From: Vulcanimicrobiota bacterium
Lineage (GTDB): Bacteria > Vulcanimicrobiota > Vulcanimicrobiia > Vulcanimicrobiales > Vulcanimicrobiaceae
NCBI GenBank assembly: GCA_019232905.1
Contig: JAFANA010000057.1
Span: forward strand, 1-64,000
Direction of reading: 5' to 3'
DNA: 64,000 nucleotides
The stretch's first letter is position 1, and the number at the start of each line of letters is the position of its first letter. A program made the position numbers and the translations under genes. The notes beneath the pieces were generated by a model. It was not told the origin of the DNA, did no database searches, and saw nothing but the letters and a program-made list of their open reading frames with translations. Shown piece by piece: positions 10,399 to 15,459 of this stretch.

Positions 10399-10851
10399 CT
10401 GCCCATCCTACAGCAACCGGGCGGCGGGCACCTGAGAGTCCTGTTAAGGCTCCGTGCGTCCCATGGGACCATCAGCTACTTACTCACAGGACGGGCGACC
10501 AAAGGCCCGGGAGATTAAGGGGCTTATGAACATGAAGGGCACACCCCTTTTCTAAGGTAGTCGTAATCAAACCATCATGAAACGGCGGGGTTTTATTCAC
10601 GCCTTATCCACATCTTCTTAAAACCAACCCACCTGACCGCTACGGTTATCGCCTGAGGCCGCGCTTGCTGAGCACGAGCCTCTTACAATCATCCCGCGTG
10701 GTGGGCGGATCGGCTGAGGGACTTACGACCTACTCTGAATTTCAGCGTTCCATCCATATCGCGGATTTCTCAATGGGATCCGAGCGAGGGCTCGTACGGG
10801 GGGTTCGGCGCCATACGGGCGGGTCCCAATGAGGTTGGAGGGAGAGAACTC
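10399..10851. other. 453-bp gap with RNA-like hairpins, possible leader or ncRNA
   Basis: No convincing ORF. The region is less GC-rich than its surroundings and contains several inverted repeats. GTCCTGT (10438-10444) pairs with ACAGGAC (10486-10492) and encloses the palindrome GTCCCATGGGAC (10458-10469). AAGGGG (10517-10522) pairs with CCCCTT (10544-10549), followed by TTTTC, which is weakly terminator-like. It could hold a small RNA or the long leader of the regulator gene at 10852, or a leader for the minus-strand gene at 10398. I could not match it to a known riboswitch. Confidence 0.35.
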
Positions 10852-11490
10852 TTGGCTACCGTCGTTCAGGCGACGATCCGCGTGTACATCGTCGAAAAGC
10901 AGCTTCTCTTTGCAAAAGCCGTTGCGCAGGCGCTCTCGTCAGACCCGGAGATAAGAGTCGTCGGCATCTCGGCGAGCCGTGAAACGGCAATCGCTTCCCG
11001 GGAAGCCGCCGACGTGGTTGTGGTAGACATCGATGACGCTGACGATCTCGACGAAGCGATTGAATTCTTCCGGTCGCACAATCCGTCGCTGCGCGTCTGC
11101 GCCCTATCAATGCACCCGCAACCCGACCTCTTGCAGTACTGCTTGTCCGCCGGTGCGGACGCGTACATCGTCAAAGACTCCTCGCTGCAAGAGCTGGTAA
11201 CAGCCATTCATAGCGTCGCACGGGGCACTAGTTACGTAGATCCTCGTGTCGCCGCAACGTACTTCCGCCGCCGCGGTTCCTCGCGCAGAGACGGTGTTGC
11301 GGAACTCTCGCCGCGTGAAATGGAAATCATCCGTTTGATCGCGCAGGGACTCTCGAATCGCGACATCGGCAAACGTCTTGCTCTCTCGGAGAAGACGGTG
11401 AAGAACCACGTGAGTCACATCTTCTCGAAACTTCACATCACGACACGTTCGCAAGCCGCGGTTCACGCCATACGCAGCGGGCTCGCCTAA
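10852..11490 (+). CDS. NarL/FixJ-type response regulator
   Basis: A 212-residue two-domain regulator. The receiver domain (about 8-125) has the acidic phosphoacceptor region VVVVDIDDADD and the conserved Lys in YIVKDSS. The C-terminal LuxR helix-turn-helix (about 148-210) reads LSPREMEIIRLIAQGLSNRD followed by SEKTVKNHVSHIFSKL. It should bind DNA as a phosphorylation-dependent dimer. The start is TTG 10852, set by a strong ribosome site (GGAGGGAGAG) 7-8 nt upstream. No partner kinase is adjacent; the orphan kinase at 14029-15381 is the nearest candidate. A terminator follows directly. Confidence 0.9.
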   Translation: MATVVQATIRVYIVEKQLLFAKAVAQALSSDPEIRVVGISASRETAIASREAADVVVVDIDDADDLDEAIEFFRSHNPSLRVCALSMHPQPDLLQYCLSAGADAYIVKDSSLQELVTAIHSVARGTSYVDPRVAATYFRRRGSSRRDGVAELSPREMEIIRLIAQGLSNRDIGKRLALSEKTVKNHVSHIFSKLHITTRSQAAVHAIRSGLA

Positions 11491-11507
11491 GCCCCACCAC
11501 CGAACGC

Positions 11508-11542
11508 ACGGCCGGCGAGGCATCCGCCGGCCGTCGTGTTTT
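11508..11542 (+). terminator. Intrinsic terminator
   Basis: ACGGCCGGC, 9-nt loop, GCCGGCCGT, then CGTGTTTT. It follows the response regulator and lies between convergent genes. Confidence 0.75.
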
Positions 11543-11551
11543 CCGTGACGG

Positions 11552-12733
11552 TCAGACGAGCTCCATATGTCGCCGGCGCTCGAATGGACGTCCCAGGGTG
11601 TAACAATCGAATCCGGCCTTGCGCCACTGCGCAGTGTCGAAGAAATTTCTCGTGTCGACGAGGCGGCGCGCGCGCATTAGCGGACCGACGCTGCTCGGCG
11701 TAATGCGCGAGAAGACGTGATGCGCCGCCAGCAGCACGAGCGCATGCGCATCAGCGACCGTTTCACGCAACGTATCGCACAGCGGGAGCGAGTGCGTTCG
11801 CACGATGGGATCGTAGATCGCCGCCTCGTATCCTCGTTCGCGAAGCAACGCATCGATGGCCATCGCGGGCGCACCGAGGATCGCGATTTTCTGTCCCGCA
11901 CCGGGTCCGACCAATTCGCCGATTTGCGCGACGAGATGATAGGGCATGCGTTCGTTCACGCGACGCGCCGCCTGAATGACATCCGTGACGATCGGGTTCA
12001 AATCCGAGCGTACGTCCGGAGCGGGAGAAAGAACGTCGACGCAGGGATGCGCGTTTGCAAGCGAGATTGTCTCCCAGACGTCGACGCCGAATTCTTCACA
12101 GAAGATCGCCAGTTCGTTTGCAAAGGCGATGTTGACCTCGCGGTACGCATTCTCGACGTTTTTCACGACTTCGGCAACGATCGTCGTCGTCAATGAGATC
12201 GGCGCCGTGCAAAAGCTCGCATAAAGATCGCGGACGATGAGCGCGTCTTCTCTCGTGCGCCCCCCGATAATGCGCGGATTGGATCGAAGTTCCCGAATGA
12301 ACGCGCCGGGTGTGACACGTTGCGGGCAGTACGCCACATGATAGCCATCGATCGAGCGGTGCGCGCCGCGCAGCGCCGCTTCGAAGATGCGTTCGGTCGT
12401 TCCGGGCGCGACGATCGATTCGAGCGCGAGGATCGAGCCCGGCGGGGCTGCGCGTGCAACCACGCCCGCGGTTTCTTCGAGATGTTCGGCCGGCACACCG
12501 ATGATGTACGCGTCTGCCGCCGGAATCCGTTCGACAAACCGCAGGTCGCCGAGCGCGAGTGCCTGTTCCACGGCGCGATACACGCACGGTTCGCCGCTAA
12601 ACCCTGTCACGGCGCGCAAAGTTCGGCGCACGTTTGAACTCGTATCGTACGCGCACACGGCGTGCCCGCCCGCGGCGAGAAGCGCGGCAGTTGAGAGGCC
12701 GCTGAAGCCGAGACCGACGACGGCGACATTCAT
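11552..12733 (-). CDS. UDP-sugar dehydrogenase homologue lacking the catalytic Cys
   Basis: A 393-residue member of the UDP-glucose/GDP-mannose/UDP-ManNAc dehydrogenase family, closest in style to WecC. It has an N-terminal NAD site (VVGLGFSGLSTAALLA), the central helix segment EVVKNVENAYREVNIAFANE with the conserved Lys191 and Asn195, and a C-terminal UDP-binding domain. In active enzymes HP-x5-QPGPG is followed by GGHCI-x-DP with the catalytic Cys. Here the segment reads HPCVDVLSPAPDVRSDLNPI (about 229-248), so that Cys loop is missing without a frameshift. Oxidation to a uronic acid is therefore doubtful, and a half reaction, binding role or decayed gene are alternatives. The start overlaps the glycosyltransferase stop (ATGA), which suggests exopolysaccharide or glycan work. 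Confidence 0.78.
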   Translation of the reverse strand: MNVAVVGLGFSGLSTAALLAAGGHAVCAYDTSSNVRRTLRAVTGFSGEPCVYRAVEQALALGDLRFVERIPAADAYIIGVPAEHLEETAGVVARAAPPGSILALESIVAPGTTERIFEAALRGAHRSIDGYHVAYCPQRVTPGAFIRELRSNPRIIGGRTREDALIVRDLYASFCTAPISLTTTIVAEVVKNVENAYREVNIAFANELAIFCEEFGVDVWETISLANAHPCVDVLSPAPDVRSDLNPIVTDVIQAARRVNERMPYHLVAQIGELVGPGAGQKIAILGAPAMAIDALLRERGYEAAIYDPIVRTHSLPLCDTLRETVADAHALVLLAAHHVFSRITPSSVGPLMRARRLVDTRNFFDTAQWRKAGFDCYTLGRPFERRRHMELV

Positions 12734-13938
12734 CCAGCACCGCCCGACACGAGAAATGCCGACGCGAGTTTACGCATTTGCGTGTGCACGTCGTGGAGCG
12801 CTTTGACGCGATAATATGCGCGGGTCGCGCGTTGATACGCGGTGCGCGGATCCATGTGCACGCGTGCGAGCGCAACGGCGATCGCTTCCGGCGAATTCGA
12901 ACGGACGAGATAGCCGCATGAATCATCCATCAATTCGCAGATGCTTCCCGAGTCGGTCACGACGGCCGGAACGCCGTACGCCATCGCGTCGATGAGCGCC
13001 GAGGGAAGACCCTCCATCATCATCTCGCCGTCGGCGCGGCTCGCGAGCACGACCGCGTCGACGGTTCCGCTGCGATACCAGCGGTGTAAGACGCGCTGTG
13101 GAACGTGTCCCGCAAATTGCACGACGCCGCCCAGACCCAATTTGCGCGCCCGCGCTTCGAGCATGGGACGTAACGGGCCGCTTCCGGCGAAGATGCAGTG
13201 CACGGTGATACCGCGCGAGCGAAGCAATGTAATTGCCTGCAGCACATCGTCGTGCCCTTTGACGGGGACGAGTGCCGCGGGGCATACGATGCGCAGCACG
13301 ACGCGTGAGGATCGCCATCCGGTCGTTGGGAGCGTCGGCACCCGCGCGCCGAGGCGAATCTCGACGATGCGCGATCCGAGCGAGGGAATGCGCGCGCGAA
13401 GATCGCGCGTCGCGCGGTCGGAAATCGTACGAACGAACGTTGCGGCGCGTGCTTTAACATCGAATGCGTTCTTCTCGTAGATGTCCCAGCGGTGCGCGGT
13501 GGCGCTCCACGGAAGCTCCGCAACGGACCCGGCAATAAATGCGACGCTCGCCGGCGTCGACATCCAATACGCATGCACGTGCGTAACGCGGTGCTCGCAC
13601 GCCCACTGCCCGAGGGCGAGTCCTTTGGCAACGATCGCCGCGTTTTTCGTCTTGCCCGGATCGTGAGAAGCGAACAGTTGCGCAAGCGCGCTGCAGCATC
13701 CGATGGGCCGAAGTACCAGTGCCGCGCTCGCGCGCACGGCGACTTCCGTATCAAAAAGCGGCCATTCGAGAACGTTGATGCCTTCCGGAACGGCATGACG
13801 GCGGATGCCGTCGGGCGCACGAACCGGCACGATCGTGATCTGACCGAAATACTGTTTCAATTCTTGCAGTTCGGTGTTCAGATACGACTCTTGATGACCG
13901 AACGGATAGCGCGACGTAACGGCCAGCAAGTGTGACAT
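12730..13938 (-). CDS. Glycosyltransferase, GT4-like (GT-B fold)
   Basis: A 402-residue GT-B glycosyltransferase. The C-terminal nucleotide-sugar domain carries PAALVPVKGHDDVLQAITLL, then FAGSGPLRPMLEARAR, and EGLPSALIDAMAYGVPAVVT with the family's E-x7-E acidic pair (here EGLPSALIDA). The N-terminal acceptor half starts with MSHLLAVTSRYPFGHQESYL. It transfers a sugar from a nucleotide donor, and neither donor nor acceptor is predictable. It is the first gene of a two-gene operon with the dehydrogenase homologue. TATCAT lies 9 nt before the ATG with no Shine-Dalgarno, so the 5' leader may be only about 2 nt. Confidence 0.87.
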   Translation of the reverse strand: MSHLLAVTSRYPFGHQESYLNTELQELKQYFGQITIVPVRAPDGIRRHAVPEGINVLEWPLFDTEVAVRASAALVLRPIGCCSALAQLFASHDPGKTKNAAIVAKGLALGQWACEHRVTHVHAYWMSTPASVAFIAGSVAELPWSATAHRWDIYEKNAFDVKARAATFVRTISDRATRDLRARIPSLGSRIVEIRLGARVPTLPTTGWRSSRVVLRIVCPAALVPVKGHDDVLQAITLLRSRGITVHCIFAGSGPLRPMLEARARKLGLGGVVQFAGHVPQRVLHRWYRSGTVDAVVLASRADGEMMMEGLPSALIDAMAYGVPAVVTDSGSICELMDDSCGYLVRSNSPEAIAVALARVHMDPRTAYQRATRAYYRVKALHDVHTQMRKLASAFLVSGGAG

Positions 13939-14028
13939 GGTGGAGCAATGATACGCCTGCCGCTTATGCGTAATGCAGAGGCGTTCGTCCCTACATGCGT
14001 GCCGATGCGCATGGTGAAAACGGTCCCC

Positions 14029-15381
14029 TTATTTTGGTGGATCGCTTATTGCGGGGAGCCGGACGTAGAGCGTCGTCCCGATACCCGGAAGACTGATCAC
14101 GTCGATCGATCCGTTGTGCGCGTCGATGATTTTTCGAACGATGAAGAGTCCGACACCCGCGCCGACTGCGCCGGTTGCATGCGGACTTCGCCAGTACTCT
14201 TCGAAGATGTGCGGTAGATCCTCAGGATCGATTCCCTGGCCGCGATCGCGAACGAGGACTTCGATTTCACTGCCGTCGCGTTTCACCTCGATATCGACGG
14301 GTTGAAACGGCGCCGAGTATTTCGTTGCGTTGCTGATGACGTTGTCGAACGCGCGCAGTAAATAGGCTTCGTCCCCTTCGACCGCTTCGTCTTTGGCCTG
14401 CACGCGGATCGGGTGCAGCTGATGGTAGCGCGCGGCGACGCTATGGAGGACCGGCGCGAGTTCGACCCGCTCGTGTTTGATCTTGAGCGCGTCACTTGCG
14501 ATACGCGCCATCAGGAGCGCTTCATCGGTCATCTCGGAGAGTTGCTCGACGGATTCGTGGATGCCGCGATATGGCCCGGGGTCGTCACGCTTTTCCGGAA
14601 ACTCTTGGAGCACGTCGGCGCACGCCGATATGACGGCGAGTGCCGATTTAAAATCATGCGCGAGCATGGCAATGACTTTCATGCGCCATTCGCCGATGCG
14701 CGTTGCCGTGTGGCTCGACTCCGTGATTTCCGCAAATGCCCGCGCTTGGACGTCGACGGACCGTCGCTCGTAAACGAGCGCAAGAACGCCGATGATCGCG
14801 ATTACCGCGATGATCGCTAACGCCTCTAAGTATTGCACGAGGTGCGTGAGTCGGGTATTTTCTTGCGCGTCCTGAGCCGCCATGGCGTCGAGCGCAGCAA
14901 GGTCCGCGCGCATGGAATCCACTAACTCCTTCCCATTCATCTCGAGCCCAACGTCGCGACCTGCGACGGGATCGCGCAGGACCGGTTGGGCGACATTGTT
15001 CTCCCATTGGTTGTGCAGCGCCGTAAAATGCGTAACGGTCGCGGCTTCAGCGCCACGCGCGCGCCGTTCAGTCGCCATCCGGTTAGCGGAGCCTTCGAGT
15101 TGCGCTTTCCCGTCGAAGTACGGCCCCAGGAAACGCCGGTCGCCGGTTACGGCGTACCCGCGGATGGCTGTCTCCTCGTTGATCTGCGCTTCCAACAGGC
15201 GGTTTGCTTCCAGGCGCAGGTTGCCGGCGCGATCGTCGCTGATTTCGAGCACGCGCAGCTCGTAAAAGGCAATGAGGATCGCGGCAATGACTGCCAGGGT
15301 CAAAATGAGGTACCGGGCAACAAGCCGCCACAGGCGCCGCTCGCGGTGCCAGTCGCTCAGCCCGGGGCCGTTAGACTGCAT
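14029..15381 (-). CDS. Membrane histidine kinase with CHASE3-like sensor
   Basis: A 450-residue kinase: TM1 (about 23-45), an extracytoplasmic helical CHASE3-like region (about 50-180, including AIRGYAVTGDRRFLGPYFDG), TM2 (about 186-206), a HisKA-type helix with His in MLAHDFKSALAVIS, and a HATPase domain with N box (NVISNATKYS), G1 (DRGQGID) and G2 (GAGVGLFIV). It should autophosphorylate and signal to a response regulator, but none is adjacent. The start is ATG 15381. TATACT lies 12 nt upstream without a Shine-Dalgarno, giving a very short leader. It is divergent from the gamma-glutamyltransferase leader ORF. Confidence 0.9.
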   Translation of the reverse strand: MQSNGPGLSDWHRERRLWRLVARYLILTLAVIAAILIAFYELRVLEISDDRAGNLRLEANRLLEAQINEETAIRGYAVTGDRRFLGPYFDGKAQLEGSANRMATERRARGAEAATVTHFTALHNQWENNVAQPVLRDPVAGRDVGLEMNGKELVDSMRADLAALDAMAAQDAQENTRLTHLVQYLEALAIIAVIAIIGVLALVYERRSVDVQARAFAEITESSHTATRIGEWRMKVIAMLAHDFKSALAVISACADVLQEFPEKRDDPGPYRGIHESVEQLSEMTDEALLMARIASDALKIKHERVELAPVLHSVAARYHQLHPIRVQAKDEAVEGDEAYLLRAFDNVISNATKYSAPFQPVDIEVKRDGSEIEVLVRDRGQGIDPEDLPHIFEEYWRSPHATGAVGAGVGLFIVRKIIDAHNGSIDVISLPGIGTTLYVRLPAISDPPK

Positions 15382-15417
15382 TGAGATGTTGCCAGTATAT
15401 GTCGATTATTTACACCG

Positions 15418-15459
15418 ATGGTTGCAACCAATCCTGACAGAAGAGCACCAAAACAATGA
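15418..15459 (+). CDS. Possible 13-codon leader peptide coupled to ggt
   Basis: ATG at 15418 opens the 13-residue frame MVATNPDRRAPKQ, whose TGA overlaps the ggt ATG (ATGA, 15456-15459). GATTAT at 15404-15409 lies 8 nt upstream and could be its -10. The ggt start itself has only a distant purine run, so coupling from this ORF may be how ggt is translated. Too short for coding statistics; inferred from position only. Confidence 0.3.
   Translation: MVATNPDRRAPKQ

Follow-up and report, generated by a model that had tools for sequence, protein, structure and literature searches.

By sequence and predicted fold, the gene at 11552-12733 encodes a nucleotide-sugar dehydrogenase pseudoenzyme, in which the fold of the enzyme family is retained but the catalytic residues are gone. 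Its product (hereafter q) is thus a dehydrogenase by descent and by modelled structure, and not by its catalytic residues. The gene lies in the window, the first 64,000 nucleotides of contig JAFANA010000057.1 from the MAG-like assembly GCA_019232905.1 of a Vulcanimicrobiaceae bacterium (3.29 Mb, 144 contigs, 83% complete). We give about an even chance to the reading that q has been retained for a non-catalytic role, in which it would either partner the glycosyltransferase encoded next to it or form the inactive subunit of a live dehydrogenase.

Locus and family assignment

The features of the locus are listed in Table 1. The open frame of q spans 393 codons and contains neither a stop nor a frameshift. 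The protein matches PF03721, PF00984 and PF03720 in Pfam and scores 200.8 bits against TIGR03026, the NDP-sugar dehydrogenase family of NCBIfam, which is above the curated cutoff of 189.8; its score against NF008286, the equivalog for the UDP-ManNAc dehydrogenase WecC, is 164.1 bits and far below the cutoff of 459. Among PDB sequences, q matched 4r16, a UDP-ManNAc dehydrogenase, with an E-value of 7.4e-51. A scan of the genome collection with the q sequence alone returned no relative, while a scan with the alignment did. Within the phylum, 33 of 149 genomes (source genome included) had a match to q at E <= 1e-50; the matches without a usable locus (G064 and G080:C158) were left out.

Table 1. 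Features of the q locus, in window coordinates.
Feature	Position	Strand	Basis and remarks
LuxR-type response regulator	10852..11490	(+)	PF00072, PF00196; convergent with q
Terminator-like hairpin, 10 pairs	11508..11534	(+)	Pattern search; between response regulator and end of q
q, NDP-sugar dehydrogenase homologue, 393 aa	11552..12733	(-)	Predicted catalytically dead from sequence
Deletion 3 junction, 12 residues (AYKADVDDARES)	11869..11870	(-)	Alignments; between A288 and P289
Deletion 2 junction, 11 residues (GGHCIPVDPHF)	12010..12011	(-)	Alignments; between V241 and R242
Lys191 to Asn195 of the long helix, kept	12149..12163	(-)	Alignments; helix 184-215 in model
Deletion 1 junction, 9 residues (PTP..GKPDL loop)	12487..12488	(-)	Alignments; between A82 and E83
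GT4-type glycosyltransferase (GT), 402 aa	12730..13938	(-)	PF00534; ATGA overlap with q
CHASE3 sensor histidine kinase	14029..15381	(-)	PF05227, PF00512, PF02518; upstream of GT-q, same strand, 90 bp gap

The best NCBIfam match of the GT was EpsE (NF041876; 128.8 bits, below the cutoff of 400). As the original prediction had noted, the stop and start codons of GT and q overlap in an ATGA (12730-12733). q closes its run of same-strand genes, and the gene that follows is convergent. Terminator-like hairpins were not above chance (5 found, against 5.5 in shuffles), and promoter-like patterns were also at chance level. The GC content across GT and q (0.61-0.64) is at most slightly raised relative to the flanks (0.57-0.62), and this comparison gave no clear sign of a foreign island.

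Loss of catalytic loops and residues

Compared with 30 full-length orthologues, q has three deletions (9, 11 and 12 residues), all of them in frame. The original prediction had described a UDP-sugar dehydrogenase homologue in which the catalytic-cysteine loop was replaced by VRSDLNPI. The family and the absence of the loop were borne out, but the description of the loop was not: 11 residues have been deleted, and RSDLNPI is the flanking segment, which reads LSDANPF or LADLNPF in intact enzymes (LSDANPF in the nearest relative). Similarly, the family can be aligned on both sides of this loop, as had been proposed, but the alignment is interrupted by the 9- and 12-residue deletions and carries five point losses. 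In the numbering of q these are Y10F, T82A, T107I, E138Q and R231C, which correspond to Y10F, T83A, T118I, E141Q and R244C in that of SpUDPGDH, with A82 aligned at the position of Thr83. In the latter numbering the deleted functional residues are G257, G258, C260, D264, K320 and R327. Deletion 2 takes the catalytic Cys and the general-base Asp, while deletion 3 takes the UDP-diphosphate Lys and the NAD-pyrophosphate Arg. A frameshift or sequencing error in q was considered and rejected in view of the three in-frame deletions and the coding-like codon use (see below), in agreement with the earlier proposal of an in-frame loss.

The roles of these residues are described in PMC4794789. There, 18 residues are invariant across 229 family sequences, and four sequences vary at other critical residues, none of them with proven activity. 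Asp264 is given as the general base of the first oxidation and Cys260 as the nucleophile of the second, Tyr10 is assigned to thioester hydrolysis and Lys320 to binding of the substrate diphosphate; together, Asp264, Thr118, Thr83 and Lys320 act in the first oxidation, in placing NAD and in binding the substrate. Of the 18 invariant residues q keeps 10 and lacks 8. The equivalents of Cys260, Asp264 and Lys320 are deleted.

We scored 22 sites, namely these 18 plus four further functional residues from PMC4794789, mapped by motif. Of the 80 genome-collection genes, 77 entered the scoring, with L097 (taken as the same gene as L039 of G088) and two short genes omitted. L014 and L040, both partial, were excluded from this scoring, from the invariant-column count and from the dehydrogenase tree. 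Eleven of the 22 sites are lost in q, so that by sequence neither half-reaction looks possible, which strongly supports the earlier suggestion that the protein is non-oxidising. Such losses are rare: among 108 aligned homologues, 105 lose 0 or 1 site (91 lose none and 14 lose one, T83S in 12 cases), and more than one site is lost only by q (11), L051 (3) and L050 (2). In addition, GGxC was held by 80/80 homologues, the best 80 of 590 in the genome-collection scan, and the alignments placed no substitute Cys in the predicted active site of q.

Other parts of the protein are kept. q retains the GXGXXG motif, the adenosine-ribose Asp and the equivalents of Lys204 and Asn208; the latter are the Lys191 and Asn195 of the original prediction, whose presence was confirmed in alignments. 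They lie in a long helix which also retains the invariant Glu and, in total, the invariant Lys and two Asn. According to PMC4794789, this helix contributes dimer contacts in the family. A second suggestion, that q is a binding protein, is possible but weakened: the UDP-diphosphate loop is deleted and the nicotinamide-ribose Thr is changed to Ala, while GXGXXG and the adenosine-ribose Asp are retained. For a new activity of q we found no support.

Predicted fold

The AlphaFold2 model of q, built with 63 relatives, is confident (pLDDT 92.8, pTM 0.88; 95.0 and 0.90 for the model of an intact relative). The lowest block means were at 241-250 (66), 381-393 (69 and 45) and 41-50 (72). The model has the Rossmann - helical - UDP-binding Rossmann fold, and its top PDB structure match was again 4r16 (TM 0.85, Z 41.3 over 378 residues), a UDP-ManNAc dehydrogenase like WecC, with which a structural comparison had been proposed as a check. 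When the deletions were mapped on the model of the intact relative, one of the three fell wholly within a loop; another removes two 2-residue strands and the end of a helix, and another the short catalytic helices (254-265 of the intact relative), which have no counterpart in the q model. The argument that the deletions spare the core was therefore dropped, and the confident model itself stands in its place.

Relative to the UDP-ManNAc dehydrogenase group (WecC, Cap5O and the Pyrococcus enzyme 4r16), q is thus alike in sequence, in predicted fold, in the GXGXXG motif and in the long helix with the Lys204 and Asn208 equivalents, but differs in lacking the equivalents of the catalytic Cys and Asp, the diphosphate Lys, Thr83, Thr118, Glu141 and Tyr10.

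Branch lengths and constraint

The end branch of q measures 0.73, against 0.28-0.42 for four sisters from the same node (1.7-2.6x). The branch of the GT at this locus is 0.52, and those of its sisters are 0.55-0.88 (GT tree and column set of 19 sequences, with L067 omitted as a near-duplicate). Since the q branch is long and the GT branch is not, the lengthening is confined to the dehydrogenase. The 30 orthologues share 76 invariant columns; of these, q keeps 58, while 11 are changed and 7 are lost by deletion. Intact long-branch relatives (L057, L012, L042 and L011) change 0-1 invariant columns, the outgroup L015 changes 12/88 and the Cys-less L051 8/84. In the GT, 3/49 invariant columns are changed at this locus, and 0-2 in other GTs. 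As a side observation, position 317 of the GT is Asp instead of the Glu seen in all 18 other relatives of the alignment (E317D), and a mild effect on activity is possible; we take this column to be the second Glu of the EX7E motif.

The codon score of q (0.250) is close to that of the GT (0.255) and lies within the range of nine other window genes (0.11-0.30), which also set the reference for this score, while q read in its five other frames gives -0.08 to 0.13. Coding-like codon use makes it plausible that q is still expressed, as had been suggested. The ATGA overlap by itself is no evidence of expression, because it is ancestral: a 4-base stop-start overlap between GT and dehydrogenase was found in 22/25 scorable loci of relatives (32 loci, of which 7 offered no long upstream frame within range).

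In simulations of neutral drift, 60 missense changes left the frame without a stop with a probability of 0.13-0.21; for 100 changes this probability was 0.05-0.11, and for 150 it was at most 0.01. The changes in q at undeleted invariant columns (11/69) correspond to ∼0.17 changes per site, or ∼66 residues, so that a recent neutral phase remains compatible with its open frame. That three of three deletions are in frame has a probability of ∼1/27 if frames are random. We also examined whether changes concentrate at functional sites. Overall, 11/22 functional sites are changed versus 25/99 sites elsewhere (p=0.023), but away from the deletions the difference (4/15 versus 13/81) is not significant (p=0.26), and the same comparisons at 30/30 conservation gave p=0.081 and p=0.33, respectively. 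The excess at functional sites is modest, and these tests weaken the idea that changes concentrate there. Taken together, the sequence and model data point, short of proof, to relaxed constraint on q with some residual selection for a folded product.

Genomic context in relatives

GT and dehydrogenase are adjacent in the loci of relatives. The nearest rows, the intact Eremiobacterota orthologues of G082, G085, G112 and G076, form one clade with q and share its GT partner; they differ from q in keeping the motifs and in sitting in a larger cluster. In G085 this cluster includes a Bac_transf sugar transferase, further GTs and a Wzy_C protein, with a D-glucuronyl C5-epimerase domain protein directly after the dehydrogenase. 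The G119 cluster has Bac_transf and Wzy_C proteins as well, and similar genes recur in the stretches of other relatives. A PF06662 domain protein after the dehydrogenase was seen in near relatives (L063:7082-8140, minus strand, 1.5e-39); the group concerned (L052, L053, L062-L066, L068 and L070) was assembled by similarity only, and the PF06662 scan was that of L063. The C5-epimerase domain gene suggests, from sequence, that iduronate-containing polysaccharides may be made in Eremiobacterota.

At the locus studied here, the GT-q pair stands without the polysaccharide cluster of its relatives, and its neighbours are the histidine kinase and the response regulator. The sugar transferase, C5-epimerase, Wzy-like protein and further GTs of the relatives had no relative in window positions 1-40000, and PF06662 had no match in the 83% complete source genome. 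Elsewhere, this genome has a single match to a relative's sugar transferase (on contig C46), two Wzy_C matches (C12 and C46) and two other dehydrogenases (C46 and C139), both Cys-containing. The histidine kinase had no relative in the fetched loci of q's relatives (E 1e-5), and a relative of the response regulator was present in 5/23 stretches examined. In G001, the one other genome of the genus that was searched, no orthologue of q was found; there, the genes for PNPase, a small protein and GGT lie near one another without the block of response regulator, dehydrogenase, GT and histidine kinase. The absent block spans about 10400-15440 of the window, between the small gene beside the PNPase gene and the GGT gene.

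Other dehydrogenases without the cysteine

The original prediction had called for a search for the same loop in relatives. Other Cys-less members were found, but their loops are not deleted (one residue is missing in that of G119) and fewer sites are lost than in q. Seven of 77 distinct dehydrogenase frames lack GGxC: q, L050, L051, L054, L179, L180 and L194; the frames come from loci of the phylum chosen by similarity and are not a random sample. Two further lineages of Eremiobacterota have thus lost the Cys. As in q, the Cys-less proteins of G115, G119 and G045/G048/G050 have lost Cys and Tyr10 and kept the frame; they are separated from q by intact enzymes on the tree or belong to another subfamily. 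The seventh, L194:1132-2649 (plus strand, on G020:C72), scores 246 bits against TIGR03026 and has GGTLARD in place of GGxC.

In genus g19 the loop reads GGNCIPVDA in L049, GGSAIPFDS in L050 and GG-AVPAAAR in L051. L050 (G115) thus has Cys changed to Ala, while L051 (G119) has lost both Cys and Asp. In both proteins Tyr10 is replaced by Arg, and at both loci the upstream gene still overlaps by 4 bases. They belong to the same orthologue group as q but lie away from it on the tree. The dN/dS of pairs with L050 or L051 is 0.13-0.23 and that of all g19 pairs 0.06-0.23; these values are rough, since only one pair has a dS below ∼1 and the intact past of the branches is included. Two g19 stretches end with another dehydrogenase gene ∼7-8 kb further on, which in G119 keeps its Cys.

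The second lineage comprises a paralogue with the loop GGHWIPLDP (GGHW) in the three g42 genomes examined, G045, G048 and G050 (L054:1188-2594 on the minus strand, L179 and L180). These proteins share the changes of Cys to Trp, Glu141 to Val and Tyr10 to Phe, and by our reading of the alignment keep the equivalents of Asp264, Thr118, Lys204, Asn208 and Lys320. Because the losses are common to all three, their divergence most likely came afterwards, and the dN/dS among them (0.063-0.146) then indicates that a Cys-less member is under purifying selection there. The contigs with the GGHW gene also carry an intact dehydrogenase ∼7-8 kb away, and the positional counterpart of the GGHW gene in G047 still has the Cys.

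Discussion

q descends from the dehydrogenase that, in related Eremiobacterota, is encoded after the GT in a translationally coupled pair within a polysaccharide cluster. The rest of the cluster is missing at this locus. Three loops in or next to the active site of q are gone, together with five functional side chains, while the GXGXXG motif, the dimer-contact helix and, in the model, the Rossmann - long helix - Rossmann fold are retained. We infer that a folded, inactive subunit has been retained for a non-catalytic function. Most likely it would be translated together with the adjacent GT and act as its structural partner, or it would pair, as the inactive subunit, with the dehydrogenase encoded on C46 or C139; NAD(H) would perhaps be a structural ligand. 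Retention is favoured by the open frame, the in-frame deletions, the coding-like codons, the confident predicted fold and the restriction of change to the dehydrogenase, and the Cys-to-Trp paralogue of three species, with its low dN/dS, provides a precedent within the phylum. Against it stands that the conserved non-catalytic columns of q are relaxed too. All evidence on q itself comes from one sequence in one MAG.

The main competitor is that q is a relic, a recently inactivated gene that outlasted the loss of the polysaccharide cluster and now drifts unselected but not yet broken. The absence of the cluster at the locus and of a C5-epimerase match in the 83% complete genome makes this reasonable, as do the sugar transferase match elsewhere, on C46, the long end branch, the 18/76 invariant columns changed or lost and the lack of the whole block in G001; moreover, a neutral phase of ∼60 missense changes would leave no stop with a probability of 0.13-0.21. 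A relic would, however, have had to escape stops over 393 codons and keep three of three deletions in frame with no downstream gene that requires the q frame to stay open, and its coding-like codon use, its confident model and the normal branch of the partner GT argue against it. We consider decay a serious possibility with a little over one chance in three, and retention somewhat likelier. A changed reaction, such as a two-electron oxidation of alcohol to aldehyde without the Cys thioester step, could draw on the retained Lys204 and Asn208 equivalents, GXGXXG and adenosine-ribose Asp, but q also lacks Asp264, Thr118, Thr83 and Lys320, to which PMC4794789 assigns roles in the first oxidation and in the handling of NAD and substrate; this is improbable for q and fits the Cys-to-Trp trio better. 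Least probable is an artefact of assembly or sequencing. The gene does come from a single MAG in 144 contigs, but three separate in-frame deletions and scattered substitutions in one gene, with undamaged frames in the neighbours and no more than 52-59% identity to the closest relatives found, are unlike the pattern expected from collapse or base-calling errors.

In a broader and, in our judgement, rather unlikely scenario, Eremiobacterota polysaccharide loci would repeatedly make selected Cys-less dehydrogenases beside a live one, some of them aldehyde-forming, with a scaffold such as q as the end state. The aldehyde-forming reading of the Cys-to-Trp trio follows from the loss of Tyr10, Glu141 and Cys260 with the first-step residues kept. 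If this were true, q would be a pure scaffold for the coupled GT or for a live dehydrogenase subunit.

We found no paper on a pseudoenzyme or inactive paralogue of the NDP-sugar dehydrogenase family in the open-licence PMC library. A q that is frame-intact and predicted to fold while lacking 8 of the 18 invariant residues, together with Cys-less members in three lineages of one phylum, one of which is under clear purifying selection, suggests that genes for inactive or altered NDP-sugar dehydrogenases do yield products. Such proteins would allow one to study how enzymes of glycan pathways turn into scaffolds or acquire a different reaction, and they warn that a match to TIGR03026 or Pfam is no guarantee of uronic-acid synthesis.
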